From Levilactobacillus tongjiangensis (GTDB lineage: Bacteria > Bacillota > Bacilli > Lactobacillales > Lactobacillaceae), in assembly GCF_003946345.1 (NCBI RefSeq), contig NZ_RHNY01000001.1, positions 124,001-188,000 of the forward strand: DNA of 64,000 bases, written 5' to 3'. The notes under the pieces were generated by a model. The model was not told where the DNA came from and did not search any database. It saw nothing but the letters and a program-made list of their open reading frames with translations. How positions within the stretch are numbered: the first letter of the stretch is position 1; each line of letters opens with the position of its first letter. Below are positions 3,421 through 46,625 of this stretch, piece by piece. Both the position numbers and the translations under genes were made by a program.

Positions 3421-3607
3421 TCGCCTCCGGCCGTCAGGGCTGGTGCTGGCTGTGGGGACCGCCTGCAGCCAAAGTACGGGCTTCCGGCTCGACTTGAAAC
3501 CTCGGAAGTTCGCCGAGTTTCCAAGCTCGTCCCGTGGCGTAACCTCGGAAATGCACCGAGCTAACGCCACTTTCACTGCCAACACCAGCCCTGACGACCT
3601 GCGGCTA
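3421..3607 (+). repeat. Structured intergenic repeat, type I, copy 1
   Basis: Outer arms 3423-3450 and 3578-3605 pair over 28 positions with four mismatches. Inside are three hairpins: one with loop CCAAAGTACGGG (3470-3481), one of CTTGAAACCTCGG against CCGAGTTTCCAAG, and one of GTGGCGTAACCTCGG against CCGAGCTAACGCCAC. Strand refers to the CCAAAG loop. The ORFs overlapping this stretch have no support as genes. Confidence 0.8.
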
Positions 3608-3747
3608 CACTTGTGGGTTGGGTGAACATAACTGAACTGTTTACTGATGTAATACGAGGTTGTCATTGCTGTGATTAACTGGCATATTCATTGATTTTGG
3701 TCAGTAAGCCAACTAATTTAAGTGAAATTGATTGTTTATAAATCACC

Positions 3748-3792
3748 AAAAAGGCCGTTAGTACCGTGAGTTTCGGTATTAACGGCCTTTCT
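3748..3792 (+). terminator. Rho-independent terminator
   Basis: AAGGCCGTTAGTACC pairs with GGTATTAACGGCCTT and is followed by a short T tract. The sequence between it and the next gene (3793-3963) includes a GC-rich dyad near 3861-3890 with GGCAAAGTGCGG, perhaps a decayed fragment of the intergenic repeat. Confidence 0.7.
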
Positions 3793-3963
3793 CGTATCGT
3801 TTAGATAATTCAAAAGAAACAGCGTTGTATCAGCGTTTGCAACCACCTTGGCAACCGTGACGGGCGCAACTAGCCCGGGCAAAGTGCGGGGTGGCAGTTT
3901 TGATTGCTAGACGGGATTAGGGGTGAGTCATTATACTCGAATTAAATTATAGGGGATGAGCAG

Positions 3964-4317
3964 ATGGAGAATGTATTTAGACAGCAGCTGGTTAAAATTC
4001 GGCGCCAGCAAAACCTTTCACAGGAACAATTGGCCGGACAACTGTTTGTGTCACGCCAGTCTATTTCTAAGTGGGAACAGGGGGAAACGTCGCCGGACAT
4101 TGACACGTTGGTCAAACTCGCCAATTTGTTGCAGGTTGATTTGAATGAATTAGTTGGTGGTGAGAAAACCACGGAAACGTCCTTCAGAACCGATAACTTG
4201 GGGACGCAACAAACTAATCATCAGTCACAGATGAATGGTTGGGAATTTCTATCAAAGAATTGGTGGACGATTATTCCGATTCTGGGGATTATTGGTTGGA
4301 TTCTTGGAGCTAATTGA
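3964..4317 (+). CDS. Small membrane-tethered XRE-family HTH regulator
   Basis: A 117-aa protein. Residues 5-60 form a Cro/C1-type helix-turn-helix (QLVKIRRQQNLSQEQLAGQ, then VSRQSISKWEQGE). A polar linker leads to a C-terminal tryptophan-rich hydrophobic segment (WWTIIPILGIIGWILG) that probably spans the membrane, so the regulator is likely membrane-anchored. The upstream GAGGGG-like sequence (GGGGATGAG) is the best ribosome site. Its target is unknown; no adjacent gene is obviously controlled by it. Confidence 0.8.
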   Translation: MENVFRQQLVKIRRQQNLSQEQLAGQLFVSRQSISKWEQGETSPDIDTLVKLANLLQVDLNELVGGEKTTETSFRTDNLGTQQTNHQSQMNGWEFLSKNWWTIIPILGIIGWILGAN

Positions 4318-4331
4318 AGATGCTGGTTTAG

Positions 4332-4541
4332 ATGGTAGTGCTGGGATGTGGGGATGTCCTGGCGCTATTTTTTGTGGCGCTGGGGTTGAGCTGGGGCGTT
4401 AGAGAGTTTCTCGCCGAACTGTTGTGGCCTGGCAACTTCAGAAACGTGTTACTACCGGGCAGACAGTTGCGCTTAACCCGATTAAGTAAACGACCCAAAC
4501 CCAGGGTCATTCACTTAATCACGTTAATGCTCGCTGTCTAA
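4332..4541 (+). CDS. Possible small hydrophobic protein (doubtful)
   Basis: A 69-codon frame directly after the XRE gene with a hydrophobic N-terminal half (VLALFFVALGLSWGV) and a basic C-terminal half. There is no convincing ribosome-binding site. It may be a decayed extension of a membrane gene. I do not recognise it. Confidence 0.2.
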   Translation: MVVLGCGDVLALFFVALGLSWGVREFLAELLWPGNFRNVLLPGRQLRLTRLSKRPKPRVIHLITLMLAV

Positions 4542-4565
4542 CCGCCCTTCGTAACACTCTTGACC

Positions 4566-4598
4566 CAAAAATCCCCCGTCGCGACGTACGACGGGGGA
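4566..4598 (-). terminator. Rho-independent terminator of the NlpC/P60 gene
   Basis: Minus strand CCCCCGTCG pairs with CGACGGGGG, then a run of T. It lies about 60 nt after the stop codon of the NlpC/P60 gene. Confidence 0.8.
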
Positions 4599-4657
4599 CA
4601 CAGTTTATTTCATTTATGAGGATCAGGAACTGTTTTAATCTTTTTGTGAATCAGTGA

Positions 4658-5131
4658 CTATTCAACGTTACCGACACGGGCGTAACCTACAGCGTGCCAC
4701 CATGGGGCGTGAACGGCTTCAGTCACAACACCGCGGTTTTGTGAATCAATCATCTTACCCTTACCAACGTACAGACCAACGTGAGAGATAGAATGCTTGG
4801 AACCACCGAAGAAGACCAGGTCACCCTTCTTGATGTTCTTGTAAGTCACGTGCTTGAACTTGTTGTATTGTGCTTGGGCGGTACGAGGGATCTTCTTAGA
4901 AGCACCCTTCTTGTAAACGTAACTAGTAAGGCCAGAGCAATCAAAACGGGAAGGACCAGTTGAACCCCAACCGTAAGGCTTACCTAATTGGGCTTTAGCA
5001 ACCTTGTGGATCTTGTCGTATGACATGGTAGCTGCGGATGCGTCAGTTGGTTGGGTAATGGCGATACCTGCAATTGCAAATGCTACAGCGGCCATCACGG
5101 ATAATAAAATGTTAGTAAACGTCGTCTTCAT
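4658..5131 (-). CDS. Secreted NlpC/P60 peptidoglycan endopeptidase
   Basis: A 157-aa cell-wall hydrolase made of a signal peptide (residues 1-33, cleavage near DASAA) and a single NlpC/P60 domain. The cysteine nucleophile is in RFDCSG (Cys65), the histidine in ISHVGLYVG and the third residue near HAPWWHAVGY. The domain cleaves peptide cross-bridges in peptidoglycan, typically gamma-D-Glu to diamino acid. A TTG lies four codons upstream but almost touches the GGGAG site, so I prefer ATG at 5131, 13 nt from it. It has no cell-wall-binding repeats, so it may act freely secreted. Confidence 0.85.
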   Translation of the reverse strand: MKTTFTNILLSVMAAVAFAIAGIAITQPTDASAATMSYDKIHKVAKAQLGKPYGWGSTGPSRFDCSGLTSYVYKKGASKKIPRTAQAQYNKFKHVTYKNIKKGDLVFFGGSKHSISHVGLYVGKGKMIDSQNRGVVTEAVHAPWWHAVGYARVGNVE

Positions 5132-5287
5132 AAATGTAAACAAACTCCCTTTTTCAAATTAGATTTAGTATTTTGTGTTTCGCGCTTCGTTTCAACATGC
5201 TTAATACTATCAGGGAGTTGTTACAGAAATGTCTCAAAGCCGTCTCATTCGGATTAAAGGTAATGTTAAGCTCTGCAACATTTGGCC

Positions 5288-6244
5288 TTAATTGTCCGGG
5301 TAGGCGTGAGGGAAACGCCGGTGGGACGCCATTTCTGGCGTCAAAGTGATTTGTTGCAGACGCTGAGTAGTTCGCGGGATAAAAAAGTAATTTAGCGTAT
5401 TTAAATCGATAACAGACCGATAATGGGTGTAATTATGGTTGGGTTGGGTCCGTCTGGCGGGGTCATAGGGCAGGATAACCTCTGCTAACCAGTTGAAAAT
5501 TCCAGTGATACTTTCAGCGGTCGTCATGAAAGTGGGGGTTCCCCATTTTCTTAAAGCCATGTGGATGAATCGGCGCGTGGGGACTGAACCGGTGGGGAGT
5601 GGTGCTTGGCTTGCCAGATAATTGTGGGCGGCCATGGCCGTTTGACCAGAGAAGTCCGACCCACTGACGTCTAGAAAATCGTTTAAGTTCTGCAAATGAG
5701 TGGGTAGCACGGGGGTGTTGGTCAGAACGCCCACTGGATTGCGGTCAGCGTGCAGCGGGCCACCAGTGGGTTCAATGACGAGCGTTTGGCCTGACTGGTC
5801 GCTGAGAATCCAGTGGAAGGGGTAGACGTGCCGATCCTGCCCCCATTTGCGGCCAACTAGGGTGACTTGGGGCAAGTCGTTGACGAGTGCATCCAAGGTA
5901 GCGTGTTCACCTAGGGCCCAGTTGATGAAGTCTTGGGGGTTGAGGTTGATATTCCCCGTGACGGGATCGTCGGCGTAAGATGCAGCGCCAGGTAGGTAGA
6001 GTTCGGCACAGCTGATACCGTTTTCATTTACACCGTCGGCTAGCAGGTAGGCGGAGAAGTCGCTAGCAATGCGACCGCCGCCTAGAATTGCGTAACGCGT
6101 GGTCCGAAAAGTATGTAAGGCCGTTTGCCACCGGTAGTTGCGTGGTAGGAAGACCGGCCGCCAAGGAGTGGTGGTTGGAAAATCCATGGTTCGCGCAAAA
6201 AAATGGTGGGCAGAAGCGGAGGTATAGGTTAGACTAGTACACAC
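5288..6244 (-). CDS. Linear amide C-N hydrolase, choloylglycine hydrolase/penicillin acylase family (Ntn)
   Basis: A 318-aa Ntn-hydrolase. The likely start is GTG at 6244 rather than the upstream ATG: AGGAGG lies 7 nt before it and it places Cys as residue 2 (M-C-T-S), where the family needs its N-terminal nucleophile after Met removal. Other family features are FARTMDF (Arg near 18), the ENGIS-type segment and the conserved NTPV and NYLAS stretches. Members cleave conjugated bile salts, penicillin V or N-acyl homoserine lactones; substrate cannot be read from sequence. Confidence 0.8.
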   Translation of the reverse strand: MCTSLTYTSASAHHFFARTMDFPTTTPWRPVFLPRNYRWQTALHTFRTTRYAILGGGRIASDFSAYLLADGVNENGISCAELYLPGAASYADDPVTGNINLNPQDFINWALGEHATLDALVNDLPQVTLVGRKWGQDRHVYPFHWILSDQSGQTLVIEPTGGPLHADRNPVGVLTNTPVLPTHLQNLNDFLDVSGSDFSGQTAMAAHNYLASQAPLPTGSVPTRRFIHMALRKWGTPTFMTTAESITGIFNWLAEVILPYDPARRTQPNHNYTHYRSVIDLNTLNYFFIPRTTQRLQQITLTPEMASHRRFPHAYPDN

Positions 6245-6394
6245 AAGGGTTCCTCCTTTGGGACTCATAATTAGTCTAATTATAACTTATAAATGACCGG
6301 GACTGCGGCCTTGTATTCCGGGCAATAATCTCGTAAGCTATTAAGGAGAGAAAATGCCCAGATAAAGGCTTATTTCTGGAAGGGAATTGGGATA

Positions 6395-7021: not shown

Positions 7022-7024
7022 ACC

Positions 7025-7069
7025 AAAACACAGGCTGTTTTCCAATCGGAAAACAATCTGTGTTTTTTT
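7025..7069 (+). terminator. Rho-independent terminator
   Basis: AAACACAGGCTGTTTTCC pairs with GGAAAACAATCTGTGTTT and is followed by seven T. It lies directly after the stop codon of the membrane protein gene. Confidence 0.85.
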
Positions 7070-7109
7070 GTATATCGGGGGAGTGCTTTGGTTATGCATC
7101 TCGTTTTGT

Positions 7110-7272
7110 CCGCCTTACCGGGCAGGAAAAATAGGTTGGAACGCTGTGAACGCGATTTCGAGCCAAAGAGCGGTCTCGAAACTCGGTTCTGCCTAACCGA
7201 AGAAAATCACTTCGCTAAGGCAGTGCCACGGCTGAACCTATTTTTCCTGCCCTCACGGCTGATGTTTGGCGA
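7110..7272 (+). repeat. Structured intergenic repeat, type II, copy 2
   Basis: Outer arms 7120-7137 and 7235-7252 are perfectly complementary over 18 bp. Hairpin 1 is TTTCGAG / CTCGAAA (7156-7162, 7175-7181) around loop CCAAAGAGCGGT. Hairpin 3 is CTGCCTAACCGAAG / CTTCGCTAAGGCAG (7189-7202, 7210-7223) with the unpaired TAAC/CTAA bubble. The flanks CGCCTTACCGG and CTCACGGCTGA recur in the other type II copies. Confidence 0.85.
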
Positions 7273-7329: not shown

Positions 7330-7495
7330 CGCAGTGTTAGCCGAGAGGTCGCTGGATATGGGCTCAGGCGCCTCGTTGTTCTTCGCCGTTTACGGCTTAG
7401 AACAAGGCCAAGCTTTGAGACTCACGTTTTTGGTGAGGCTCAAAGTTGTGCCGGCACCGTTCCAGCCCATATTTGGCGACCGGTAAGGCGGGATA
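7330..7495 (-). repeat. Structured intergenic repeat, type II, copy 3
   Basis: Opposite orientation to copy 2 and only about 60 bp from it. Outer arms 7349-7364 and 7464-7479 pair over 16 bp, three of them G-U wobbles if read as plus-strand RNA. The loop hairpin CTTTGAG / CTCAAAG is kept but its loop has diverged. The flank CGCCTTACCGG is present on the minus strand. Confidence 0.7.
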
Positions 7496-16130: not shown

Positions 16131-17858
16131 ATGTCAGAACTACCAAAACCAGTGGTCGAACAAGGGGCGTTTAGCCAAACTGGGCTAGATGAAATAAAAA
16201 AACGGGTCACGGGTAATCACGTTGAACTGCTCCTAGAATATCCCACGGTCTATATCGTCTATGATCAAGATAAACCAAATGCTTATCAAGTTTATGTGGG
16301 TGAAACGAATGACATTGAACAGCGAACGCAGCAGCATTTAAATGACGATGTTCACGTCCGTAAAGACTGGCAATATTTGGCAGATAGTCCTGACTCCCAG
16401 CTGCTGGTGATTGGCCATCCTCACTTCAATAAATCCCTCACACTGGATATTGAAAACAACATGATGTTGTACATGTCTGGTGTTGATAGCGTAAAGAAAC
16501 TCAATAATCGTCGAGAAAATCAACAGAATAAGTACTATACGGCGAATGAAAAGGGACCAATTTTTTCGGCCATTTGGCGGAAGTTACATCGCGTGAATCC
16601 GAATATATTTCCGATTGAAGAGATCGTCCGGGATTCGGCGTTATTTAAAGCATCGCCATTTCATGAGTTGACTAAGGAACAAGATAACGCGCGTAATCGA
16701 ATTTTGCGGCGAATTAAGACGGTTTTCAGGTCCAAAGAAGATCATCAGCTGATTTTAGTTGAAGGGGAAGCGGGTTCTGGCAAGACGGTGCTGTTGAGCA
16801 CACTGTTCTATCAGTTGTGGCAACTGGGCGAAGATTTAAATTACACAGAGTTTAAAACGGCCAATAATTACTTATTGGTGAACCATGATGAGCAGGTCAA
16901 AGTGTATCAAAACATCGCTGAAAAATTGGGGATGCAGGTGGCTAACGTTAGTAAACCAACAACGTTCATCAACCATCACAGTCCCGATGAACAGGTCGAC
17001 GTGGTGTTAGTTGATGAAGCTCATTTACTGTGGACACAAGGAAAACAATCCTATCGGGGCCACAACCAACTGAAAGACATCATGGCACGGGCAAAGCTAA
17101 CAGTAGCGGTGTTTGACGTTAAGCAAATGTTGAAGACGGAAGGTTATTGGACACCGGGTGAAGTGCGGAAGCTGGAAAGCCAGGTTAAGCAGCAAGGGAA
17201 TTTGATTCAGTTTAAGCAACAACTGCGGATGGATGCCAGTGAGGCAACAACCACATGGATTCGCAACTTAATTGATCGGCGAGTTGTGACTAAGATTCCC
17301 CAAGATTCCAAGTATGAGTTGAAAATTTTTGATGATCCGGTAGCCATGTATCAGGCAATCGTGGCTAAATCACAGGATGAAACTCATGGACTGTCACGGA
17401 TTTTAGCGACGTTTGATTGGCCGTTTAAGCTGAAAGATAAAGCGATAGATATGGTAACCGTGGGGGAGCTGTCATTGCCCTGGAATCTGCAGTTACCTTT
17501 GGCGCAGAATCAGCGTGGTCAGGCAAAACATTTAGCCTGGGCGGAACAACATCAAACAATTGGAGAGGTTGGGTCCACCTATACGATTCAAGGATTCGAT
17601 TTAAACTATAGCGGTGTTATCCTGGGGCCTTCCGTGAAATATCGAAATGGAAAAATTGTTTTCGATCCTTCGGTTAGTCAAAATGTGAACGCCACCCGTA
17701 AACGGACGTTACCGAATGGGACGAAGAAGCACGTTGACAATGAACTCTTACCAAATGAATTGAACGTTTTATTGACGCGGGGTGTCCACGGACTCTACAT
17801 TTATGCAGTGGATGATGAGTTGCGGGCAGCATTATTACAAGAAAGTAAGCATAAATGA
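16131..17858 (+). CDS. GIY-YIG plus DUF2075 ATPase/helicase-like protein
   Basis: A 575-aa protein. Residues about 37-75 resemble a GIY-YIG nuclease (TVYIVYDQ, YQVYVGETND, then R and H at the expected spacing). A P-loop ATPase of the DUF2075/Schlafen group 3 type follows, with Walker A GEAGSGKT near 212 and Walker B VVLVDEAH near 292. Helicase-like motifs follow: QLRMDAS near 363, the TIQGFDLNYSGVI stretch near 485, and LLTRGVHGLYIY near 550. It is coupled to the MazG-like gene 11 nt upstream. A nuclease-ATPase next to a nucleotide-clearing enzyme suggests a nucleic-acid surveillance or phage-defence role. This is inference; the usual label is domain of unknown function. Confidence 0.75.
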   Translation: MSELPKPVVEQGAFSQTGLDEIKKRVTGNHVELLLEYPTVYIVYDQDKPNAYQVYVGETNDIEQRTQQHLNDDVHVRKDWQYLADSPDSQLLVIGHPHFNKSLTLDIENNMMLYMSGVDSVKKLNNRRENQQNKYYTANEKGPIFSAIWRKLHRVNPNIFPIEEIVRDSALFKASPFHELTKEQDNARNRILRRIKTVFRSKEDHQLILVEGEAGSGKTVLLSTLFYQLWQLGEDLNYTEFKTANNYLLVNHDEQVKVYQNIAEKLGMQVANVSKPTTFINHHSPDEQVDVVLVDEAHLLWTQGKQSYRGHNQLKDIMARAKLTVAVFDVKQMLKTEGYWTPGEVRKLESQVKQQGNLIQFKQQLRMDASEATTTWIRNLIDRRVVTKIPQDSKYELKIFDDPVAMYQAIVAKSQDETHGLSRILATFDWPFKLKDKAIDMVTVGELSLPWNLQLPLAQNQRGQAKHLAWAEQHQTIGEVGSTYTIQGFDLNYSGVILGPSVKYRNGKIVFDPSVSQNVNATRKRTLPNGTKKHVDNELLPNELNVLLTRGVHGLYIYAVDDELRAALLQESKHK

Positions 17859-17995: not shown

Positions 17996-18255
17996 AATAC
18001 TTCAAAACGTTGAGGAAAAAAGTAGCGAACGCAGCGATGCCCAGTGAGTCACGTCTAGTGGAAAGTGACCGTTTAGCGTAAGTGAAAATCATTTCCGAGT
18101 TCGATGCTGAATCAGTAGGCTATCGTGGTTGCCACCATTACTTGGCTAGCGGATGTTTGTCCGTGATGAGTGTGGTGGCGTATGCGACCACAAAAAAGGT
18201 GGTACCGTTCTACTCGTAGAGCCCTTTTCCCAGTATGGGAAGAGGGCTCTTTTTA
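17996..18255 (+). promoter_or_regulatory. T-box leader 1, isoleucine-type, of brnQ-1
   Basis: The leader carries the stem I elements (GAGGAAAAAAGTAG), a specifier loop GTGAAA-ATC-ATTTCC with ATC (Ile) at 18088-18090, and the T-box core AAAGGTGGTACCG (about 18195-18208). A terminator follows: AGAGCCCTTTTCCC / GGGAAGAGGGCTCT plus T tract, 18218-18255. Uncharged tRNA-Ile should favour antitermination and so raise BrnQ. The Ile reading rests on alignment with leader 2. Confidence 0.85.
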
Positions 18256-19739: not shown

Positions 19740-19997
19740 AATACTTAATAAACGTTGAGGAAAAAAGTAGCACGCCCAGCGATGCCTAGGGAGTCACGGT
19801 AAGTGGAAAGTGACCGTCAAGGGTGCGTGAAAGTTACTTCTGAGTTCGGTGGTTGATAAGGCCATCGTGGGTGCCACCATTACATGGCTAGCGGATGTTC
19901 GTCCGCGATGAGTGTGGTGCATCATTGGCCACAAAAAGGTGGTACCGTTCTACTTGTAGAGCCCTTTTCCCAGTATGGGAAGAGGGCTTTTTTAACG
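19740..19997 (+). promoter_or_regulatory. T-box leader 2, valine-type, of brnQ-2
   Basis: Nearly collinear with leader 1. In the aligned specifier loop GTGAAA-GTT-ACTTCT the codon is GTT (Val) at 19833-19835. The T-box core AAAGGTGGTACCG is near 19935-19948 and the terminator hairpin (AGAGCCCTTTTCCC against GGGAAGAGGGCT, then T) at 19958-19997 is almost identical. Confidence 0.85.
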
Positions 19998-27911: not shown

Positions 27912-28080
27912 TTTAAACTCCCCCTCAGGATAAATGACTTCCAAAGACAGTGTTGCCATTGATCAGGAACAAAAATGATTGCTAGCAGTGGCAGACTTTC
28001 AACTGGTTCTAGTGTTAAATTTTGTAAATCGTTATCGAACCAAGAATAGTCAGGCATTATAGGCTTCAGTCTCATCCAGC

Positions 28081-28195
28081 CACCTGAGGCTGTCAGAGAT
28101 TACGCCTGCTGTGGGGAACGCCTTCGGCCTGAAAGGCGGTCCTTCAGCTCGGTTTGAAGCCTGGAAAAACGCCAGTCTCCAAACACGTTCCACTA
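28081..28195 (+). repeat. Truncated structured repeat, type I, copy 4
   Basis: The left part matches type I (GCTGTGGGGAACGCC, then CTTCAGCTCGG and the hairpin GTTTG..CTGG / CCAG..CAAAC). No complementary outer right arm exists. It ends at the border of copy 5, as if copy 5 had arrived inside it. Confidence 0.6.
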
Positions 28196-28198
28196 GAT

Positions 28199-28369
28199 AG
28201 CCGAGAGTGAGCCTAATTTGGACTCAGCCGTGGGATTTTCAAGTGGGTTTCTTGAAAATGGCGACTTGAAGACGTGTTTTGCGGCTTCAAGCGAGGGGCA
28301 AGACCGCTTTTTGGCTTGTCCCGTCCTGCCCACCGCGTTCCAGTCCAAATTTGGCGAACGGTAAGGCGA
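28199..28369 (-). repeat. Structured intergenic repeat, type II, copy 5
   Basis: Outer arms 28211-28224 and 28342-28355 pair over 14 bp with one mismatch. On the minus strand hairpin 1 is GGGACAAG / CTTGCCCC around CCAAAAAGCGGT. A second hairpin (GCTTGAAG against CTTCAAGT) and a third (ATTTTCAAG / CTTGAAAAT) follow. Flanks CGCCTTACCG and CTCTCGGCTA match type II. Confidence 0.8.
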
Positions 28370-28511
28370 CAATTTCCCACGATGTCTGACTAAATCCTAA
28401 TACCCAATTCTTGTTGTACCAGGTATAGTGGGTGTTTCAGTGCTTTCAACCTTTAGTAACTGAAAAATGCTTACTAAGTTCGCTGGGGAAGTTAGCAAGC
28501 ATCGCAATTCG

Positions 28512-29211: not shown

Positions 29212-30567
29212 ATGGATACTAAAACAAGTTATTGGAAAGGCATCGACAAGATTCAATACGTCGGGCACTCAGATAAAAAGTCAGGCTTAGGGTTCCAGTA
29301 CTACAACCCAGAAGAAGTTATTGGCGGTAAGAAAATGAAGGATTGGTTACGGTTTGCCGTAGCTTACTGGCACACATTCGATCAACGTTTGGTTGACCCA
29401 TTCGGTGATGGAACTGCCCAACGTCCTTACGACAAGTACACAGATCCAATGGACTTGGCTTTAGCCAAGGTTGATGCTGCATTTGAATTTTACGACAAAT
29501 TAGGTGTAGATTACCTTTGCTTCCACGATCGTGACTTAGCTCCAGAAGGCGACACTTTACGTGAAACCAACGCTAACTTGGACAAAGTCGTTGACAAGAT
29601 CGTCGAATACCAAAAGACGAGTGGCATGAAGGTTCTGTGGAACACGTCAAACATGTTCACGAACCCTCGCTTCGTTGAAGGGGCTGCTACTTCTCCATAC
29701 GCTGACATCTTTGCTTACTGTGCCGCTCAATTGAAGCATAGTTTGGAAATTGGTAAGCGCGTTGGCTCCGAAAACTATGTCTTCTGGGGTGGCCGTGAAG
29801 GTTACGAATCACTCTGGAACACGAACATGAAGGAAGAACAAGAACATGCTGCTAAGTTCTTCCACATGGCTAAGGACTACGCTAACGAAATTGGCTTCGA
29901 TGCACAAATGTTGCTCGAACCAAAGCCTAAGGAACCAACGACTCACCAATACGACTTCGATGCCGCAACCACCATTGCCTTCATGAAGGAATATGGTTTG
30001 GACAAAGACTTCAAGTTGAACTTGGAAGGTAACCACGCTAACTTAGCTGGTCACACTTACCAACACGAAATCCGGACTGCCCGTGAAGCAGGTCTGTTAG
30101 GTTCATTGGATGCCAACCAAGGCGACAAGCTGATCGGCTGGGATATTGATGAATACCCATCTAACCTGTACGAAACGACTGCTGCAATGTACGAAGTTGT
30201 TGAAAACGGCAGCATCGGCCCTCGCGGTGGTTTGAACTTCGATGCTAAGCCTCGTCGTTCATCATTTGCCCCAGAAGACCTCTTCTACGGCCACATCGTA
30301 GGTATGGACAGCTTTGCTGCCGGCTTACGGGTTGCTGTTGCTATGAAGGAAGACGGCTTCTTAGACAACTTGAAGAAGGACCGTTACAGTTCATACGAAT
30401 CCGGTATCGGTGCTGATATCGAAAGCGGCAAGGCAGACTTCAAGTCCCTTGAAAAGTACGCTATCGACAAGCCACAATCAGAATTGATTGCTGCTACGCA
30501 CTCTGACCACTTGGAAGAAGTCAAGGATACGATCAACCATTACATCATTGACACTCTGAGCAAGTAA
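29212..30567 (+). CDS. xylA: Xylose isomerase
   Basis: A 451-aa cytoplasmic enzyme converting D-xylose to D-xylulose, with Mg or Mn. The family signatures are CFHDRDL (His/Asp active site near residue 103), the metal-ligand block [18 protein letters not shown] near 240, the [12 protein letters not shown] segment near 270 and LDANQGD near 302. The length is that of class II XylA. It is controlled by XylR and CcpA sites upstream and followed by a strong terminator, then two structured repeats before xylB, so the xyl genes are not one tight operon. Confidence 0.95.
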
Positions 30568-30659: not shown

Positions 30660-30832
30660 GTGTCGCCTGCGGCCGCCAGCTACTGCGCTGTGGGGCAACC
30701 TTTTCAGCCAAAGTGCGGTCTGAAAAGGCACGAGAGAACCCCGCCTAACCCGCGTGTTTCCCTCGTGGCCCGTGGTCTAAGCTAGCTAACACCACCATCA
30801 CTGCGCAGTAACTGGCGGCCTCCGGCTCTAGA
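30660..30832 (+). repeat. Structured intergenic repeat, type I, copy 6
   Basis: Outer arms 30666-30688 and 30803-30825 pair over 23 bp with three mismatches. Hairpin 1 is CCTTTTCAG (30699-30707) / CTGAAAAGG (30720-30728), nine perfect pairs around CCAAAGTGCGGT. Hairpin 2 is CACGAGAGAA / TTTCCCTCGTG and hairpin 3 GTGGTCTAAGCT / AGCTAACACCAC with CTAA/TAAC bubble. Confidence 0.85.
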
Positions 30833-31040: not shown

Positions 31041-31216
31041 AGCTGGAGGTGGGGACGGGTCACGCAGTGTCGATGTTCTTAGTGGCGGTTTTTGCCGCTT
31101 AGAACATGGGCCGCACTTGGTGACCCACGGTTCTGGTGGGGCACCAAGTCGCCGCGGAAGACCGCTTTGTGGCTTCCGGGGTTGCCCCACAGCGTGACCC
31201 GTCCCCACCGGAAGCG
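31041..31216 (-). repeat. Structured intergenic repeat, type I, copy 7
   Basis: Outer arms 31048-31065 and 31192-31209 are perfectly complementary (18 bp). On the minus strand hairpin 1 is CCCCGGAAG / CTTCCGCGG around CCACAAAGCGGT. Hairpin 2 is ACTTGGTG...CACCAAGT. Hairpin 3 is ATGTTCTAAGCGGC / GCCACTAAGAACAT. It lies between xylA and xylB, opposite to copy 6. Confidence 0.85.
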
Positions 31217-33039: not shown

Positions 33040-34413
33040 ATGCGAAAAGTTTCGACCGGATTTGTTTATTTCTTCGGGGCTTTGGGTGGATTACTATTCG
33101 GTTACGATACCGGGGTAATTTCCGGAGCCATTTTATTTATTCAAAAGCAGATGAACCTGGGTTCTTGGCAACAAGGCTGGGTCGTTAGTGCCGTTCTGTT
33201 GGGGGCCATTTTAGGGGCTGCCATCATCGGACCATCCTCTGACCGTTATGGCCGGCGGAAGTTACTGCTATTATCAGCAATTATTTTCTTCGTGGGGGCC
33301 TTGGGTTCCGCGTTCTCACCAGAGTTTTGGACATTAATTATTTCACGGGTCGTCCTCGGGATGGCCGTTGGGGCTGCCTCAGCCTTGATTCCAACTTACT
33401 TAGCTGAACTATCACCCGCTGACAAACGGGGGACGATGTCCAGTCTGTTCCAACTGATGGTTATGACCGGGATTCTGTTAGCCTACATCACCAACTACGG
33501 TTTTGCTGGCTTCTACACCGGCTGGCGTTGGATGTTAGGGTTTGCCGCAATTCCTGCCGCAATCCTGTTCTTAGGTGGGTTGATCTTACCTGAAAGTCCT
33601 CGTTTCTTAGTTAAAACGGGTCACAGTGACCACGCTCGTCAAATTCTGGACACCATGAACAAGCACAATACGCCCGTTGTTGAAAAAGAATTAGCACAAA
33701 TTGAAGAACAAGCTAAGATGAAGAACGGCGGCTGGAAAGAACTCTTTGGCCTGATGGTTCGTCCTTCATTGACGATTGGTATTGGTCTGGCTATTTTCCA
33801 ACAAGTTATGGGATGTAACACCGTGCTGTACTACGCACCAACTATCTTTACTGACGTTGGTTTCGGGGTCAACGCAGCCCTGTTAGCCCACATCGGTATC
33901 GGGATCTTTAACGTGATCGTTACTGCGATTGCCGTGATGATCATGGATAAGATCGACCGTAAGAAGATGTTGAATATTGGTGCCGTTGGGATGGGGATTT
34001 CCCTGTTCGTTATGAGTCTCGGGATGAAGTTCTCCGGTGGTTCTCAAACTGCAGCCATCATCTCCGTTATCGCCTTGACCATCTACATTGCTTTCTTCTC
34101 CGCAACCTGGGGTCCCGTAATGTGGGTTATGATTGGTGAAGTCTTCCCACTGAACATTCGTGGGTTAGGGAACTCCTTTGCTAGTGTGATCAACTGGACC
34201 GCTAACATGATCGTTTCCTTAACTTTCCCATCTCTGTTAGACTTCTTCGGTACTGGTAGTTTGTTTATCGGTTACGGGATTCTCTGCTTTGCTTCTATCT
34301 GGTTCGTTCAAAAGAAGGTCTTCGAAACTCGGAACCGTTCTTTGGAAGATATCGAAGCAACGTTGCGTGCTAAGGCGGACGAAAAAGAAGCTAGCCTGAA
34401 CGCTGCGAAATAA
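33040..34413 (+). CDS. xylT: D-xylose:H+ symporter XylT, copy 1
   Basis: A 457-aa sugar-porter MFS protein with 12 membrane segments. GRR motif (DRYGRRKLL near 65), PESPRFLVK near 185 and the FFSATWGPVMWVMIGE stretch near 350 define the family. Sequence and context match the L. brevis XylT type. AAGGAGCGATATCT precedes ATG. Upstream cre and palindrome place it under CcpA and XylR. Copy 2 follows. Confidence 0.93.
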   Translation: MRKVSTGFVYFFGALGGLLFGYDTGVISGAILFIQKQMNLGSWQQGWVVSAVLLGAILGAAIIGPSSDRYGRRKLLLLSAIIFFVGALGSAFSPEFWTLIISRVVLGMAVGAASALIPTYLAELSPADKRGTMSSLFQLMVMTGILLAYITNYGFAGFYTGWRWMLGFAAIPAAILFLGGLILPESPRFLVKTGHSDHARQILDTMNKHNTPVVEKELAQIEEQAKMKNGGWKELFGLMVRPSLTIGIGLAIFQQVMGCNTVLYYAPTIFTDVGFGVNAALLAHIGIGIFNVIVTAIAVMIMDKIDRKKMLNIGAVGMGISLFVMSLGMKFSGGSQTAAIISVIALTIYIAFFSATWGPVMWVMIGEVFPLNIRGLGNSFASVINWTANMIVSLTFPSLLDFFGTGSLFIGYGILCFASIWFVQKKVFETRNRSLEDIEATLRAKADEKEASLNAAK

Positions 34414-34432
34414 GTTAAGTATTTCCTTTGAT

Positions 34433-34477
34433 TGCGAGAGGGCCATTCCTGCGAGGATGGCTTTCTCGTTTTTTTGT
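34433..34477 (+). terminator. Terminator after xylT copy 1
   Basis: GCGAGAGGGCCAT pairs with ATGGCTTTCTCG (imperfect) and is followed by seven T. Confidence 0.65.
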
Positions 34478-34600
34478 AAAAAATTTTAAAGTGACTTGGA
34501 TTTATCATTGGTGGTGAGAAACATAGAGTTTATAAGGAAAGTCACGAGATTGTGCTGTGAAACCGTTTACCCTGATTGCGAAAACCTTCACGAAATTCCG

Positions 34601-34670
34601 TAGGAAACGCTTTCAAAAATTTGATGAAAGTGCTATCATAGCTTCTAGTTGGTTGTGGCAATCAGCCAAC
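34601..34670 (+). promoter_or_regulatory. cre and XylR operator of xylT-2
   Basis: cre-like TAGGAAACGCTTTCA (34601-34615, one mismatch) and palindrome GTTGGTTG-N7-CAGCCAAC (34648-34670) with the same 8-7-8 geometry as at xylA and xylT-1. Confidence 0.75.
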
Positions 34671-34738
34671 GCTAAATGTGCCAACTTACATATTGCAAAA
34701 AAATTATGCGGCGACGAACCGTCAAAGGAAGTAAGAAC

Positions 34739-36115
34739 ATGCGAAAAGTTTCAACTGGCTTTGTTTACTTCTTCGGCGCCCTTGGGGGTCTCCTCTTTGG
34801 GTATGATACCGGGGTAATTTCAGGAGCAATTCTGTTTATCCAGAAACAAATGAATTTAGGGTCTTGGCAACAAGGCTGGGTCGTCAGTGCCGTCTTATTA
34901 GGTGCCATCTTAGGTGCCGCCATCATTGGACCATCCTCTGACCGTTTTGGTCGGCGGAATTTATTGCTGCTTTCAGCTATTATTTTCTTGGTCGGTGCTT
35001 TAGGATCTGCCTTCTCACCAGAGTTCTGGACACTGATCGTTTCCCGGATCATCTTGGGGATGGCCGTTGGGGCTGCTTCAGCTTTGATTCCAACGTACCT
35101 GGCTGAATTGGCACCTGCTGATAAGCGGGGGACCGTTTCTAGTCTGTTCCAACTGATGGTTATGACTGGGATCCTGTTGGCTTACATCACCAACTACAGT
35201 TTCTCTGGTATGTACACCGGCTGGCGTTGGATGTTAGGGTTCGCTGCTATTCCAGCTGCTCTGTTGTTCATTGGTGGGTTGGTCCTGCCAGAAAGCCCTC
35301 GGTTCTTGGTTAAGTCAGGTCACATGGCCGAAGCACGTGAGGTGCTGGATACCATGAACAAGCATGACCAAGCCGCAGTTGACAAGGAAGTTGCCCAAAT
35401 CGAAGAATCAGCCAAGATCGTTAGTGGTGGCTGGAAGGAACTCTTCAGTAAGATGGTTCGTCCTTCATTGACCATTGGTTTTGGGTTAGCAATTTTCCAA
35501 CAAGTCATGGGATGTAACACCGTGCTGTACTACGCACCAACCATCTTTACGGATGTTGGTTTCGGGGTTTCCGCCGCACTGTTAGCCCACATTGGTATCG
35601 GGATCTTTAACGTGATCGTTACTGCCGTTGCCGTAACCATTATGGATAAGGTTGACCGTAAGAAGATGCTGATCATTGGGGCCGTTGGGATGGCCATCTC
35701 ACTGTTCGTGATGAGCCTTGGGATGAAGTTCTCCGGTGGTTCTCAAACTGCTGCGATTATTTCCGTTATCGCCTTGACCATCTACATTGCCTTCTTCTCC
35801 GCAACTTGGGGCCCCGTAATGTGGGTTATGATTGGTGAAGTCTTCCCATTGAACATTCGTGGGTTAGGGAACTCATTTGCTAGTGTGATCAACTGGACTG
35901 CTAACATGATTGTTTCCTTAACTTTCCCATCTCTGTTGGACTTCTTCGGTACTGGGAGTTTGTTCATCGGTTATGGTGTTCTCTGCTTGGTTTCCATCTG
36001 GTTCGTCCAAAAGAAAGTCTTCGAAACACGGAACCGTTCCTTGGAAGATATCGAAGCCACCTTACGTGCTAAGGCTGGCGAAGATGCTTCTAGCTTGAGC
36101 GCCGCACAAAAGTAA
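34739..36115 (+). CDS. xylT: D-xylose:H+ symporter XylT, copy 2
   Basis: A 458-aa paralogue of copy 1, roughly 90 percent alike by eye; differences cluster in the cytoplasmic loop near residues 200-235 and the C-terminal tail. PESPRFLVKSGHM and FFSATWGPVMWVMIGE are retained. The open frame extends upstream, but AAGGAAG before ATG 34739 and alignment with copy 1 fix the start. It has its own cre and palindrome. Affinity differences are plausible but not visible. Confidence 0.92.
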   Translation: MRKVSTGFVYFFGALGGLLFGYDTGVISGAILFIQKQMNLGSWQQGWVVSAVLLGAILGAAIIGPSSDRFGRRNLLLLSAIIFLVGALGSAFSPEFWTLIVSRIILGMAVGAASALIPTYLAELAPADKRGTVSSLFQLMVMTGILLAYITNYSFSGMYTGWRWMLGFAAIPAALLFIGGLVLPESPRFLVKSGHMAEAREVLDTMNKHDQAAVDKEVAQIEESAKIVSGGWKELFSKMVRPSLTIGFGLAIFQQVMGCNTVLYYAPTIFTDVGFGVSAALLAHIGIGIFNVIVTAVAVTIMDKVDRKKMLIIGAVGMAISLFVMSLGMKFSGGSQTAAIISVIALTIYIAFFSATWGPVMWVMIGEVFPLNIRGLGNSFASVINWTANMIVSLTFPSLLDFFGTGSLFIGYGVLCLVSIWFVQKKVFETRNRSLEDIEATLRAKAGEDASSLSAAQK

Positions 36116-36233: not shown

Positions 36234-36349
36234 TTTTGGGGGTGAGGTTACTGATTGATTTGATTAAGGGGGATATTACTTTGATTGAAACTAGACGTGA
36301 AATCAGTGGGCATTTATCAAGTCAATCTAAATGATTAACATCAATATAG

Positions 36350-36540
36350 CTGGAGGTTGTCAGGGAGTGGGCGGGCTGTGTCGGTGGTGTTGGTCCGGGT
36401 GGGGTTACCCGGGCCTACAGCACGGGACGAGCTCAGAGACCGCGCGAACTTGGCGGGGGCTTTGAGTCGAGCTGAAGGACCGCTCCTCAGGCCGAAAGCG
36501 GTCCCCACAGCCCGTCCGCTCCTTGCCAACCGGAGGCGGC
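36350..36540 (-). repeat. Structured intergenic repeat, type I, copy 8
   Basis: Outer arms 36355-36380 and 36506-36531 pair over 26 positions with one mismatch; three of the pairs are G-U in the plus strand. On the minus strand hairpin 1 is GGACCGCT...AGCGGTCC, hairpin 2 joins CTCAAAG..CCGC to GCGCGGTCTCTGAG, and hairpin 3 joins GGCCCGGGT to ACCCGGACC. Conserved linkers are AGTTCG and GCTCGTCCCGT. Confidence 0.8.
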
Positions 36541-40327: not shown

Positions 40328-40358
40328 GTCGGAGGTTGCCGGCCCCCGCCAACCGGAG
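40328..40358. repeat. Remnant of a type I structured repeat
   Basis: GGAGGTTGCCGGC joined directly to CCCGCCAACCGGAG looks like the two outer ends of a type I element with the interior deleted. Compare GGAGGTTG and GCCAACCGGAGG in copies 8 and 9. A second trace (CTCCGGTGGCCAG...GTGGGG) lies near 40097-40120. Confidence 0.4.
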
Positions 40359-40371
40359 ACAAACCACTTAG

Positions 40372-42895: not shown

Positions 42896-42929
42896 ATGAG
42901 CGCAATCACAAAATTGATTGGAAAAGACC

Positions 42930-43120
42930 AGTGTAGTCAGAGGTTGGCGGGGTGGGTGCCAGCCGTGAAAGTAGTATTAGCTGAGTGAGCTCAGCTAATA
43001 CTACGGGACGAGCTTGGAAACTCGATGAACTTTCGAGGTTTCAAGTCGAGCCTAAAGACCGCACTGTGGCTTTAGGCGGTCCCCACAGCGGGCACCCAAC
43101 CGCCAACCGGAGGCCGCGAT
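42930..43120 (-). repeat. Structured intergenic repeat, type I, copy 9
   Basis: Outer arms 42942-42967 and 43084-43108 pair with bulges. On the minus strand hairpin 1 is GCCTAAAG / CTTTAGGC around CCACAGTGCGGT (43050-43077), hairpin 2 CTTGAAACCTCGA / TCGAGTTTCCAAG (43013-43044) and hairpin 3 is a perfect 15-bp arm pair GTAGTATTAGCTGAG / CTCAGCTAATACTAC (42971-43004). Confidence 0.85.
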
Positions 43121-43245
43121 AGGTATCTAATTATTAAGATTACGAATAGAAGCTAGCAAACTGATTAAGCTTGCATCGAATTTCTGGTAATTTTGACCGA
43201 TTTGATTATATTTAAAGTAATTGGGTAAGGGGGGCAGTAAGTCTG

Positions 43246-44022
43246 ATGGCGAAACGAGCACAACGTGGATTAGTTATTTATCATACCGGCGTGACGCTGC
43301 TAACACTCTGGTCGGTAATCAACGTGAGTCTAATGATTCTGCGACTGGGAAGCCATGCGGTTGAATTGACGATTGCTAATGGCTTATTAGTGGTGTTTGC
43401 CATTGATTATTTCGTCCGGTTAGTTGTGACGAAGAATCGTAAAATTTTTCTCATTCAGTCAGCTTTTGACTTGCTGGGGATTATTCCGCTACACCCGGTT
43501 TTTGCTTTCTTTCGACTAGGTCGGTTGGTCCGGCTGATTCGGTTCCACCACCTTTTTTGGCGATTAGGGATCGCGGGCAAATGGACGAAGACCTACCATC
43601 GGTTCATCTATAAAACGGGATTTATCTATTTATTTTCAATCAGTGTGGCCATCATTGTGCTGAGTGCTTTTCTCTTCTCGCTGGCTGAGAAGCAAAGTTT
43701 GGCCGATTCACTTTGGTGGGCGATTACGACGGCTACGACAGTGGGATATGGGGATGAGACGCCGCACACGGCGGTTGGGAAGATTGTTGCCAGCTTTCTG
43801 ATGTTCGGTGGCGTTGGCTTCATCGGGTTGTTGACCAGCACCATCATGGACTTCTTTACCAGTCGGACCACACAATTGGCCACCGACCACGAAGCCCAGC
43901 AGCAGGCTGATTTGGTGGAATTATTGACGAAGATCGACACCCTGACCACGAAGGTCAATCAGCTACAAGCTAAGATTACTTCCTTAGAAAAAACGACGAA
44001 AAAAAACACGCCCTCCCATTAG
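43246..44022 (+). CDS. Voltage-gated-type potassium channel
   Basis: A 258-aa six-TM channel subunit. An S4-like segment with regularly spaced Arg (FFRLGRLVRLIRFHHLF) is near residue 88. The selectivity filter TTVGYGDE is near 162. A cytosolic C-terminal coiled coil (LVELLTKIDTLTTKVNQLQAKITSLEK) likely holds the tetramer. No RCK domain, unlike Kch. GGGGGGCAGTAAGTCTG precedes ATG. Convergent with the next gene, sharing the terminator. Confidence 0.85.
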   Translation: MAKRAQRGLVIYHTGVTLLTLWSVINVSLMILRLGSHAVELTIANGLLVVFAIDYFVRLVVTKNRKIFLIQSAFDLLGIIPLHPVFAFFRLGRLVRLIRFHHLFWRLGIAGKWTKTYHRFIYKTGFIYLFSISVAIIVLSAFLFSLAEKQSLADSLWWAITTATTVGYGDETPHTAVGKIVASFLMFGGVGFIGLLTSTIMDFFTSRTTQLATDHEAQQQADLVELLTKIDTLTTKVNQLQAKITSLEKTTKKNTPSH

Positions 44023-44035
44023 GAAGAGGCGTGTC
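43998..44035 (-). terminator. Terminator between K+ channel and anchored protein gene
   Basis: Minus strand ACACGCCTCTTCC / GGGAGGGCGTGT followed by eight T; the stem overlaps the end of the channel gene. Confidence 0.8.
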
Positions 44036-44042
44036 ACCGTGA

Positions 44043-44660
44043 TTAATGAACAAATTGTAAATTGTAATTACCTTGACCATCCGAGGTGATGGTGTAAGTG
44101 CTGTAACCTTCTTGAAGCCATTGGTTCTTAGAGGCCTGGGCCCAGTTCTGTGCATCAGCGACCGACGAAAAAGTGTGGGTCGTGCCAAACGAAGTTGGGT
44201 TGTGACTGCTGTTTTTGTTAGGCGCACTAGATGTGCTGTTAGCAGAACTCTTCTTCGTTTGTGCCTGATCCAGTAGCTTTTGCTCACGGGTCTGAACAGC
44301 GTTGTTTGACTCGTTGTTAATAATATTCTGTAATTTTTGTTTTTGCGTAACGGTAAGGCCACTGTCATCGTATTGACTGTAGCGCTTCTTGAAGCTCTCA
44401 AAGGCGGACTGTTCCGAAACAGAAGAGGATCGAGCCGCAACGGAAGCACTAACACTGGATGAGTTACCGGTGCTGGCACCAGAAGGATTGTTGTGGTGGT
44501 TAATGGCTAGGACCAGCAAAATGGCAATAGCCAGCGTTAATAACGTCATGATCCATGGCCACCAGCGACGCGGCTTCCTTGGCCGTTTGCGAGTGGGCTG
44601 ATCTGACCCCTGGTTAAAGTTATACCGTTGTACGCGTGATTTTGGTTCTTGGTTGTTCAA
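44043..44660 (-). CDS. Membrane-anchored extracellular protein, function unknown
   Basis: About 205 aa. GGAGG lies 8 nt before TTG 44660, which gives MNNQEPKSRVQ; the longer ATG frames include that site and are unlikely. The N-terminus has a basic stretch (RKRPRKPRRWW) and one transmembrane helix, then a Ser-rich outside linker and a conserved-looking C-terminal module (SSVADAQNWAQASKNQWLQEGYSTYTI). I recognise similarity of layout with lactobacillar stress or cell-wall proteins but no family. Confidence 0.65.
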   Translation of the reverse strand: MNNQEPKSRVQRYNFNQGSDQPTRKRPRKPRRWWPWIMTLLTLAIAILLVLAINHHNNPSGASTGNSSSVSASVAARSSSVSEQSAFESFKKRYSQYDDSGLTVTQKQKLQNIINNESNNAVQTREQKLLDQAQTKKSSANSTSSAPNKNSSHNPTSFGTTHTFSSVADAQNWAQASKNQWLQEGYSTYTITSDGQGNYNLQFVH

Positions 44661-44866
44661 CTGAAAAACCTCCATGTCCAGAACGGTGTGAAAAAACAAG
44701 CTTGCCGTCGAGACGACAAACTACCACACCCTTCATAATACCGCAAAACACCGCCAGAACAAAATTTTCCTGCTGATTTCGGAGATTTCTTAACCTTTCT
44801 TACCGCGAAATCAGTCAACCTATTGTATGATAGGAGTGGAACTAAGTCTGAAAGGTGGTTTTTATT

Positions 44867-45730
44867 TTGCATAATGATATTCCTGCATTACCGTTAAATA
44901 ATGGCAACCGGATTCCCCAACTCGGTTTAGGGGTCTTCCAAGTTGATAACGCTGAAGATACCAAGAACGCGATTAAATGGGCTTTGGCAGCTGGGTACCG
45001 TCACATTGATACGGCCGCATACTACGGCAATGAGCAGTGGGTCGGTGAAGCTATTCGTGAGAGTGGCCTCAAGCGTGAGGACGTCTTTGTGACCTCTAAG
45101 CTGTGGAACAGTGAACGTGGTTATGATGAGACGAAGGCAGCCTTCCAAGCAACGTTGGACCGTTTAGGATTTGATTACCTGGATATGTTTTTGATCCATT
45201 GGCCAGCTCCTGGTTACGTTGACAGCTGGAAAGCAATGGAAGACCTTTACAAAGAAGGTAAAATCAAGAACATTGGGGTGTCTAACTTCAATCAGAAGCA
45301 GATGGATGAGATTTTGAAAGCAGGGACGGTTAAGCCAGTCGTTGACCAGATCGAAACGCACCCATACTTCCAACAAGACGAGATGCACGCTTACCTTGAA
45401 AGCAAGGGCATCTTGCATGAAGCCTGGAGTCCACTTGGTGGTGGGAACAACAACGCCTTGAGTGATCCAGTAATCAATGAATTAGCCGCTGCGCATGACG
45501 TTAGCGCTGCTCAAATCATTTTACGTTGGCACGTTCAACGAGAAGAAATTGTGATTCCAAAGTCCATTCATGAGGCGCGGGTTCAACAGAACCGCGATAT
45601 CTTTGCCTTTGGATTGAATCAAGATGAAATGCGAGCCATTGCGAACCTTGATGCCGGCAAACGGGTGGGTCCAGACCCAGACGATGCCGCCTGGTTAAAG
45701 AAGTCACAGACCTACAGTAGCCGCAAGTAA
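44867..45730 (+). CDS. Aldo/keto reductase
   Basis: A 287-aa NADPH-dependent carbonyl reductase (2,5-diketogluconate reductase-like). Active-site tetrad is Asp and Tyr in HIDTAAYYGNE, Lys in TSKLW, His in LIHWPAP; the C-terminus has the cofactor motif IPKSIHEARVQQN. TTG 44867 is the best start: AAGGTGG is 8 nt upstream, whereas the GTG at 44855 lies within that site. Physiological carbonyl unknown. Ends exactly where the convergent membrane gene ends. Confidence 0.88.
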   Translation: MHNDIPALPLNNGNRIPQLGLGVFQVDNAEDTKNAIKWALAAGYRHIDTAAYYGNEQWVGEAIRESGLKREDVFVTSKLWNSERGYDETKAAFQATLDRLGFDYLDMFLIHWPAPGYVDSWKAMEDLYKEGKIKNIGVSNFNQKQMDEILKAGTVKPVVDQIETHPYFQQDEMHAYLESKGILHEAWSPLGGGNNNALSDPVINELAAAHDVSAAQIILRWHVQREEIVIPKSIHEARVQQNRDIFAFGLNQDEMRAIANLDAGKRVGPDPDDAAWLKKSQTYSSRK

Positions 45731-46120
45731 TTAGCGGTACGGTGGAATGTCTTTGGCCGTTGCCTGGGGTGCCAACTGATCGGTTAATGTGTTTACAACC
45801 GTAATGGGTATCCGGGCAAACGGACTGAAGAAGTGAGGATGATCTGGGTCAGGAACGTCCTGAGTCTCCTTAAGTTTAGGTACCAATGCAACTAGGTCTT
45901 CCTTGTGAAGACCTAGTTTTTTTGCGTAATAGACGACTTCGCGGTAACTAAAATTTTTAAAATAGAAGTAGTAGCAGAGTCCAGCAACTACGAAATACCA
46001 AAAAATCGTCCATTCTAGGCCAATGGTACTAGGGTTGAGGAACCCGATGAAGATTGCGGCCACGACAAAGATGAGATAAAGCCCGATGGAAAGAGCGGCC
46101 CAACGCTGTTTATGCGTCAA
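45731..46120 (-). CDS. Small two-helix membrane protein, function unknown
   Basis: About 129 aa. TTG 46120 follows GAGG by 9 nt and gives MTHKQRWAALS; a GTG 9 nt farther up overlaps the site. Two hydrophobic segments (about 11-32 and 42-57), then a soluble tail (FSYREVVYYAKKLGLHKEDLVALVPK) and a proline-rich C-terminus. I do not recognise it. Tail-to-tail with the aldo/keto reductase with no spacer. Confidence 0.65.
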   Translation of the reverse strand: MTHKQRWAALSIGLYLIFVVAAIFIGFLNPSTIGLEWTIFWYFVVAGLCYYFYFKNFSYREVVYYAKKLGLHKEDLVALVPKLKETQDVPDPDHPHFFSPFARIPITVVNTLTDQLAPQATAKDIPPYR

Positions 46121-46269
46121 ATGTAGCACCTCGTTCTGTTTAGATTTGTGCTCCTAGTGTACGTGGTTTGGTTGGGAAAATTCAAGCTATTTCGTTAAAT
46201 CTTCCCCGAAAGTTTAGACATTACCCGCCAGTCGTGTATAATAACACGGTATTATCTAGTTTGAGCGTA

Positions 46270-46438
46270 ATATGCGCCTTACCGGGCGGGTCTGTAGGTG
46301 CTGGAACGCCATGGACACGGCTTTGAGCCAAAGAGCGGTCTCAAAGTCCGACCTTTCTCTAACCTGAGAAGACCACTCAGCTAAGAGAAATTTCATGGCT
46401 GAGCACCTACAGACCCGCCCTCACGGCTGAAGTTAGCT
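46270..46438 (+). repeat. Structured intergenic repeat, type II, copy 10
   Basis: Outer arms 46284-46302 and 46402-46420 are perfectly complementary (19 bp), with a sequence unlike any other copy. Hairpin 1 is CTTTGAG / CTCAAAG around CCAAAGAGCGGT (46328-46339) and hairpin 3 is TTTCTCTAACCTGAG / CTCAGCTAAGAGAAA. Flanks CGCCTTACCGG and CTCACGGCTGA are as in copy 2. Confidence 0.88.
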
Positions 46439-46465
46439 TAGACCAGATAGCTGGGTTGACGTCGA

Positions 46466-46625
46466 TGTTAGCCGTGAGGGCGAGAAAAATAGGCTCAGCC
46501 GTGGCACTGCCTTAGCACGGTGGTTTTCCGTGGTTAGGCAGAACCGAGTTTCGAGACCGCTCTTTGGCTCGAAATCGCGTTCACAGCGTTCTAGCCTATT
46601 CTTCTCGCCCGGCAAGGCGGCCAAC
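46466..46625 (-). repeat. Structured intergenic repeat, type II, copy 11
   Basis: Adjacent to copy 10 in inverse orientation. Outer arms 46478-46495 and 46593-46610 pair over 18 bp with one mismatch. Loop CCAAAGAGCGGT (46557-46568, minus) sits in stem TTTCGAG / CTCGAAA, identical to copy 2, while the outer stem differs from copy 2 at paired positions. Confidence 0.88.

Follow-up and report, generated by a model that had tools for sequence, protein, structure and literature searches.

Repetitive extragenic palindromic (REP) sequences are single hairpins of 20-40 bp that occur between genes in more than 100 copies and form bacterial interspersed mosaic elements (BIMEs), in which palindromic units face each other across spacers and the single-stranded form is favoured on one strand, as described in the accessible parts of two reports (PMC3733652, PMC2817692). 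The BOX, RUP and SPRITE elements of the pneumococcus are, according to the available part of their description, interspersed repeats with strong secondary structure that are old and insert slowly (PMC3049150). Here we describe a family of folding repeats in a 64,000-nt stretch of the Levilactobacillus tongjiangensis genome (assembly GCF_003946345.1, contig NZ_RHNY01000001.1, positions 124,001-188,000 of the forward strand), hereafter called the window. The usual unit appears to be two complexes, inverted relative to each other, each a clamped long copy-specific stem bearing two or three hairpins whose tips are conserved. The existence of the family, the facing arrangement and the fold are well established. 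Our preferred, still tentative, interpretation is that these are interspersed palindromic DNA elements that work like large BIMEs and act as folded single-stranded DNA.

Read in the H1-first orientation, which also defines the strand of a complex, the elements consist of a GCC clamp, an internal loop, a long copy-specific stem, an inner clamp GCTGTG, hairpin H1 (CCAAAGNGCGGT), an optional hairpin H2, hairpin H3 (mostly with a TAAC/CTAA bubble), an inner clamp CAC.GC, the other stem arm and a GGC clamp. Complexes are 148-189 nt long and contain several helices (2-3 hairpins). Two main types are found, A (GCCTTACCGG ... GGAAC) and B (GCCTCCGG ... GCTGTGGGG); a split based on GGAAC assigned 37 of 98 copies to A and 61 to B. 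Conserved sequence extends a few bases beyond the clamp on both sides in these 98 copies. Copies were searched with a covariance model (R1) built from an unconstrained MAFFT alignment of 14 copies (A2; nine from the window, five from elsewhere in the genome), which was not fitted to any structure. The copies in the window are listed below with their R1 E values and their state in two close relatives, G010 and G028 (identity of 94% to G010 and 89% to G028 in one gene, and of 91% and 89% in a second).

3423..3605, + strand: B-type complex with three hairpins; E 7e-23, used to build R1; has orthologues in G010 and G028 that show two-sided stem changes.
7112..7259, + strand: A-type complex, the left one of two that face each other; E 4e-29, used to build R1; the pair is inverted in place in G028.
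7340..7489, - strand: A-type complex that lacks H1, facing 7112 from the right; E 8e-15, not used to build R1; inverted in G028.
28026..28457, no strand assigned: left-truncated composite miniature inverted-repeat transposable element (MITE) holding the 28072 and 28200 complexes; right terminal repeat CTTTCAACCTTTAG; 85 and 88% match to the composite at L075.
28072..28199, + strand: truncated B-type complex of the composite; E 0.026 for 28072-28255.
28200..28367, - strand: A-type member of the composite; E 6e-18, used to build R1; in G010 only part of it is left, in G028 none was found.
30665..30826, + strand: B-type complex, facing 31042 from the left; E 2e-14, used to build R1; lies collinear in both G010 and G028.
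31042..31215, - strand: B-type complex, right half of the pair with 30665; E 3e-17, used to build R1; 96% identical in G028.
36349..36537, - strand: B-type complex; E 2e-13, used to build R1; in G028 roughly half of it is missing.
42936..43114, - strand: B-type complex; E 1e-20, used to build R1; A-T to C-G on both stem sides relative to G010; only a remnant in G028.
46276..46427, + strand: A-type complex, left member of a facing pair; E 7e-27, used to build R1; in G010 its interior is gone, and in G028 the pair is inverted.
46471..46618, - strand: A-type complex, right half of the pair with 46276; E 5e-29, used to build R1; pair inverted in G028.

The search with R1 revealed ten full-length copies in the window (E 4e-29 to 2e-13), nine of which are the model's own building material; matches independent of its building are 7340, the truncated 28072 and a weak one at 40328 (E 0.19). 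An initial annotation, made from the letters of this DNA, had reported eleven repeat positions, in both orientations and only between genes. All eleven are real and recovered by R1, the truncated copy weakly; both orientations occur among the window copies, and open reading frames (ORFs) called mechanically across the copies are short (at most 131 aa). The shared anatomy it described holds in general, with the exceptions that 7340 has no CCAAAG hairpin, 28072 and 36349 carry a CCTGA variant and 28200 has no TAAC/CTAA bubble. Its extrapolation to hundreds of copies per genome is plausible; established are at least 150 copies in the 2.72 Mb genome, every one with E < 1e-5, taken as the best 150 of 884 first-look candidates. 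It had also connected the repeats with no Rfam family. In the window, a tRNA alone reaches the Rfam gathering threshold and no family matches the repeats, and two further stretches searched at E up to 5 gave one microRNA-family match far under the cut-off in the first and none in the second. We regard the family as new because of this lack of an Rfam match and because no earlier description was found in the open-access literature, with subscription journals, preprints and ISfinder outside the scope of that search.

The facing arrangement is a regular feature of the family. Among the best 150 genome matches, neighbours with starts within 1 kb stand 23 times plus-minus and 6 times plus-plus, and never minus-plus or minus-minus. 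Facing complexes are also seen in other genera (e.g. L196, L220, L268, L211, L232, L253, L308 and L312), and in the genus genome G023 many GCCTTACCGG ends have an inverted end 297-597 bp further on. The two flanks of one copy are complementary beyond flanks of different copies (z 5.2 in 40-nt and 6.6 in 80-nt flanks of 98 copies). At 40 nt this complementarity reaches z 5.0 for the 82 copies with a neighbour, for which one flank is mostly spacer, and 2.3 for the 16 solo copies.

Analysis of the alignments revealed strong conservation of pairing. In A2, 86.8% of the pair cells are paired, compared to 72.3% after shuffling (none of 500 shuffles as high) and 36-46% after sliding, and both sides have changed in 36 of 60 pairs, which bears out the annotation's observation that the outer stems differ in sequence and stay paired. 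Two larger alignments were fitted to the model and lean towards it: A4, with 106 distinct rows from the own genome, has 85.9% paired cells (65.8% shuffled) and two-sided change in 56 of 58 pairs; A7, with 65 rows from other genera, has 88.0% (57.9% shuffled) and two-sided change in 57 of 58. The H1 tip is near-invariant among the own-genome copies of A4, for which the tip was not selected; some A7 loci were fetched via an H1-tip pattern, so tip conservation in A7 is partly by choice. Covariation, which the annotation had suggested checking, was assessed with our own test in the style of R-scape, a G-test with average product correction against null alignments simulated on a FastTree tree. In this tree-aware test, significance was reached by 19 of the 58 structure pairs of A4 and by 27 of the 48 of A7, the remaining 39 and 21 individually falling short of it; outside the structure no pair was significant in A4 and one in A7, which adjoins a structure pair.

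Comparison with the two close relatives showed how the elements change in place. Among 39 elements from 23 regions of the own genome, 25 have an intact, collinear counterpart at the same position in G010 and 14 have one in G028, and therefore many copies are old. The others are inverted, partly or wholly lost or altered in length, or lack flanks that can be aligned. In G028 each of the two A-type pairs of the window lies at its place in inverted orientation; of these, only one is whole in G010, and it is not inverted there. Interiors can be lost as well: at 46276 in G010 the interior is missing and both clamps remain, and at L156:9495 in G028 the left arm and the interior are missing. Two more inversion flags in G010, at 46276 and L156:4151, are part-copy matches of 76% and 85% and were not counted. 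A further inversion was found between G023 and G025, which are mostly 95-98% identical over long BLAST matches; one unit is inverted, and the unit at L316:14685 lies inside a collinear match. The inverted unit in G023 is surrounded by a perfect 17-bp inverted repeat, ATTCCGGCCCCGGTAGC. One part of this repeat is additional and copies some 12 nt of the unit's own outer arm in inverted orientation; the other part, ATTCC/GGAAT, is also present in the two flanks in G025. A copied flank is not supported here, as the extra letters are the unit's own outer arm beside flank letters already complementary in both species. Template switching, or else recombination between the inverted arms, would fit this repeat, in either direction of change.

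Strong covariation is usually read as a mark of RNA, and the multicopy structured RNA that it would imply, with the H3-first strand transcribed, the folded RNA functional alone or within messages and selection on RNA keeping the pairs, is the first alternative to folded DNA. Besides the significant pairs in both alignments, the slow change of the elements described below would suit it, and so would a strand bias of the mismatches. Wobble-type mismatches favour the H3-first over the other strand in four alignments, with 164:63 in A4, 39:25 in A5, 50:27 in A6 and 88:41 in A7 (96:36, 23:14 and 12:6 in A4, A5 and A6 with redundancy removed at 80%), and one-sided changes between orthologues, read on the H3-first strand, lead 57 times to G-U and 34 times to A-C, next to 41 other mismatches. 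These counts agree in direction; the favoured strand is therefore the H3-first strand, as RNA or as single-stranded DNA, most clearly in the own genome. On the other hand, wobble-type mismatches make up only about 2-4% of the pair cells by our own arithmetic, and of the 15 two-sided changes between orthologues (strand-neutral folds), which fall on 11 distinct sites, those at four sites are transversions. The matched stem changes alone are no proof of selection on RNA and do not settle the matter, since DNA hairpins also fit such transversions, the inversion of whole units and the rarity of wobble-type mismatches. The spacers speak against an RNA, as they show no excess of promoter signal (mean z 0.17 and -0.08 over 29 rows, which stand for 26 different spacers because three had been entered under two locus names), and so does the orientation to genes, which is not fixed, with a balance of 13:13 in tandem intergenic regions. 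We consider a structured RNA rather doubtful.

At least one subfamily has spread as a MITE passenger. The composite elements are about 500-600 bp long, end in CTAAAGGTTGAAAG and are flanked by 8-bp target duplications, perfect in L075 and imperfect in others. One own-genome composite is absent from both G010 and G028, where the site is empty; an imperfect 8-10-bp duplication marks the site. The CTAAAGGTTGAAAG ends occur in 23 of the 35 genus genomes (control pattern: 0). Two short MITE-like elements, L171:1501-1724 and L162:1501-1697, have the ends of the composite with no complexes visible and a terminator-like inverted repeat within; that in L171 has a perfect 8-bp duplication. A 2007-bp stretch of G023 between two ends (L126) was considered as an autonomous element and rejected, its ends being degenerate and its 413-aa open frame resembling a membrane transporter by eye.

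These insertions raise the question of whether the whole family consists of plain selfish MITEs, functionless remnants with stems kept paired only by mutational copying from arm to arm. The composite with its duplication and empty site, the A-type units of G023 with their terminal repeats (GCCTTACCGG/CCGGTAAGGC) and the transversions among the two-sided changes would all agree with this. The rates of change argue against it. Divergence by class was taken from one BLAST-based map for all classes; the elements diverge by 0.058 from G010 and 0.083 from G028, about one third of the rate at four-fold sites (0.185 and 0.245), and intergenic DNA within 60 nt of elements by 0.135 and 0.168. Among intact orthologues in G010 and G028, filtered for coverage of at least 93%, identity of at least 80% and at most 6 inserted bases and hence biased to slow copies, stems diverge by 0.046 and 0.045, and unpaired positions, with 0.069 and 0.090, are also slow relative to flanks (0.144 and 0.162). 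Functionless remnants would not be expected to keep a near-invariant H1 tip either, and we hold this explanation to be unlikely. The initial annotation had seen in the stems structure under selection and not ordinary terminal inverted repeats. The conserved fold, the covariation and the slow change support its first half, but the contrast with MITEs was drawn too sharply, given the MITE-borne subfamily and the ends of the G023 A-type units.

Gene context was analysed in 161 kb of own sequence, i.e. the 64 kb window and five further stretches chosen for holding elements, with the elements masked so that ORFs could not cross them. Of the intergenic regions there, elements occupy 16 of the 60 between tandem genes, 5 of the 18 between convergent and 2 of the 25 between divergent genes. 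Hairpins in 3' untranslated regions that protect or terminate messages in the H1-first direction, with many copies just past stop codons, would match the 9 of 40 elements with a clamp 12-30 nt after a stop codon (read from coordinates), but are very improbable given the wobble preference on the opposite strand, the 4 of 40 elements between divergent genes and the balanced tandem orientation.

Folded DNA is preferred over RNA because of the inverted units, the lost interiors, the transversion-type changes and the rare wobble. In such a scenario the H3-first strand would fold when it is exposed in replication or when the duplex extrudes a cruciform. The folded strand may then be recognised by a putative host or transposon protein, and selection would maintain the fold. 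Through template switching at the folded arms, one arm could serve as the template for the other, units could be flipped and interiors lost; this would explain how the long stems are individual to each copy yet paired.

Several observations weigh against the elements being BIME-like folded DNA. Their slow change is less distinctive when compared with other intergenic DNA (0.074 in G010 and 0.091 in G028), relative to which they are only slightly slower, and constraint at unpaired positions is not by itself explained by a DNA role that depends on the fold. Once redundancy is removed, the wobble preference reaches significance by columns only in A4, the copies of the own genome. The GTAGCC head, which would correspond to the GTAG tag at the head of REP elements, is found in only a minority of copies (40 of 98; 31 of 61 B and 9 of 37 A). 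Inversion is not general, since no B-type or mixed pair for which both halves were matched is flipped: all six in G028 and all six in G010 are collinear. Traces of mobility are likewise sparse outside the composite. No clean empty site was found for other copies, and direct repeats show no excess in 20- and 40-nt flanks, whether around each of the 98 copies or outside the outer clamps of 35 facing pairs and of 16 solo copies, although the real ends might be located beyond these clamps, as they are in the composite. An excess at 80 nt (z 3.5; 98 copies) is attributed to neighbouring copies entering the flanks. The outer ends of the 35 facing pairs are no more similar to each other than cross pairs (direct/inverted z -0.7/1.2 at 20 nt and -1.0/-0.1 at 40 nt). 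No mobiliser was found: ten ORFs beside CTAAAGGTTGAAAG ends, from 10 of 30 fetched pattern loci, contain no transposase domain at E 1e-5, and a REP-associated Y1/RAYT transposase of the IS200 type was rejected, as its presence does not track the family. The Y1 domain (PF01797) occurs in 23 of the 35 genus genomes, is absent from carriers including G023, G025, G029 and G034 and is present in G022 and G031.

The latter two are the genomes in which R1 found no copy in the genus search, which used stricter filters and the best 46 matches per genome. The remaining 33 of 35 genus genomes match, the own included, as do 5 of 198 genomes drawn from the order, again with the own. A wider survey by pattern scan of named genomes gave at least 80 loci, and R1 was then run on 43 chosen loci (34 of those 80 and nine from the order search). 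Among these, complexes were confirmed in five Lactiplantibacillus species and in Companilactobacillus nantensis, huachuanensis and mishanensis; Secundilactobacillus similis gave a weaker match (E 1e-5), and from Lacticaseibacillus porcinae a fragment was all that matched (E 0.07). Ten loci of unrelated bacteria and the huachuanensis locus L230 gave no R1 match up to E 0.1. Plasmids and phages as carriers were discarded, as two plasmid queries and one phage query gave no match to the repeats.

We further consider it possible, though speculative, that the repeats represent a new class, namely paired junction-folded elements of lactobacilli kept by selection on the folded single strand together with arm-to-arm template copying, with a putative recognition factor and with unit inversion as a normal event. 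Strong covariation is here joined by inverted units, lost hairpin interiors and transversion-type paired changes, and the family thus offers a natural test case of RNA selection against DNA palindrome dynamics. If a binding factor exists, it would have hundreds of target sites in food lactobacilli. Assembly breaks may in part be explained by the copies, which could also serve as markers of genome evolution in these genera.

The window contains further features. Two T-box leaders (18001-18229 and 19746-19969; Rfam E 5e-19 and 4e-16, under the gathering score) precede two tandem branched-chain amino acid transporter genes. An Nramp transporter gene and the small gene after it are duplicated in tandem at 50095-54315 (Pfam), and sugar transporter genes at 33040-36115 form a tandem pair, 81% alike across 300 nt. 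A protein with a Schlafen group 3 helicase domain is encoded at 16131-17858, and a 451-aa open frame at 29212-30567 has no Pfam match at 1e-10.

Comparison with the known systems places the family nearest to BIMEs. With BOX, RUP and SPRITE, as far as the accessible part of their description goes (PMC3049150), it shares the occurrence as Firmicute interspersed repeats with strong secondary structure, a likeness by description only; in contrast to these, it is paired and spans several genera. The composite subfamily resembles MITEs as generally known in its terminal repeats and 8-bp target duplications, whereas its terminal repeats also bound the short elements without visible complexes (L171, L162), and most own-genome complexes lie outside any recognised copy of the composite. 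With REP and BIME, in the parts of the two reports cited above (PMC3733652, PMC2817692), it has in common the high number of intergenic copies (at least 150 here), the palindromic structure, the facing pairs with spacers and the favouring of a single-stranded form on one strand, and the GTAGCC head is carried by 40 of 98 copies. It differs from the single REP hairpin in its length, its clamped junction with two to three hairpins and its copy-specific long stems, in the inversion of whole units in sister species and in the Y1 transposase, which does not track it. Because of its size and the transposase we do not file the family as REP, though its organisation is BIME-like.

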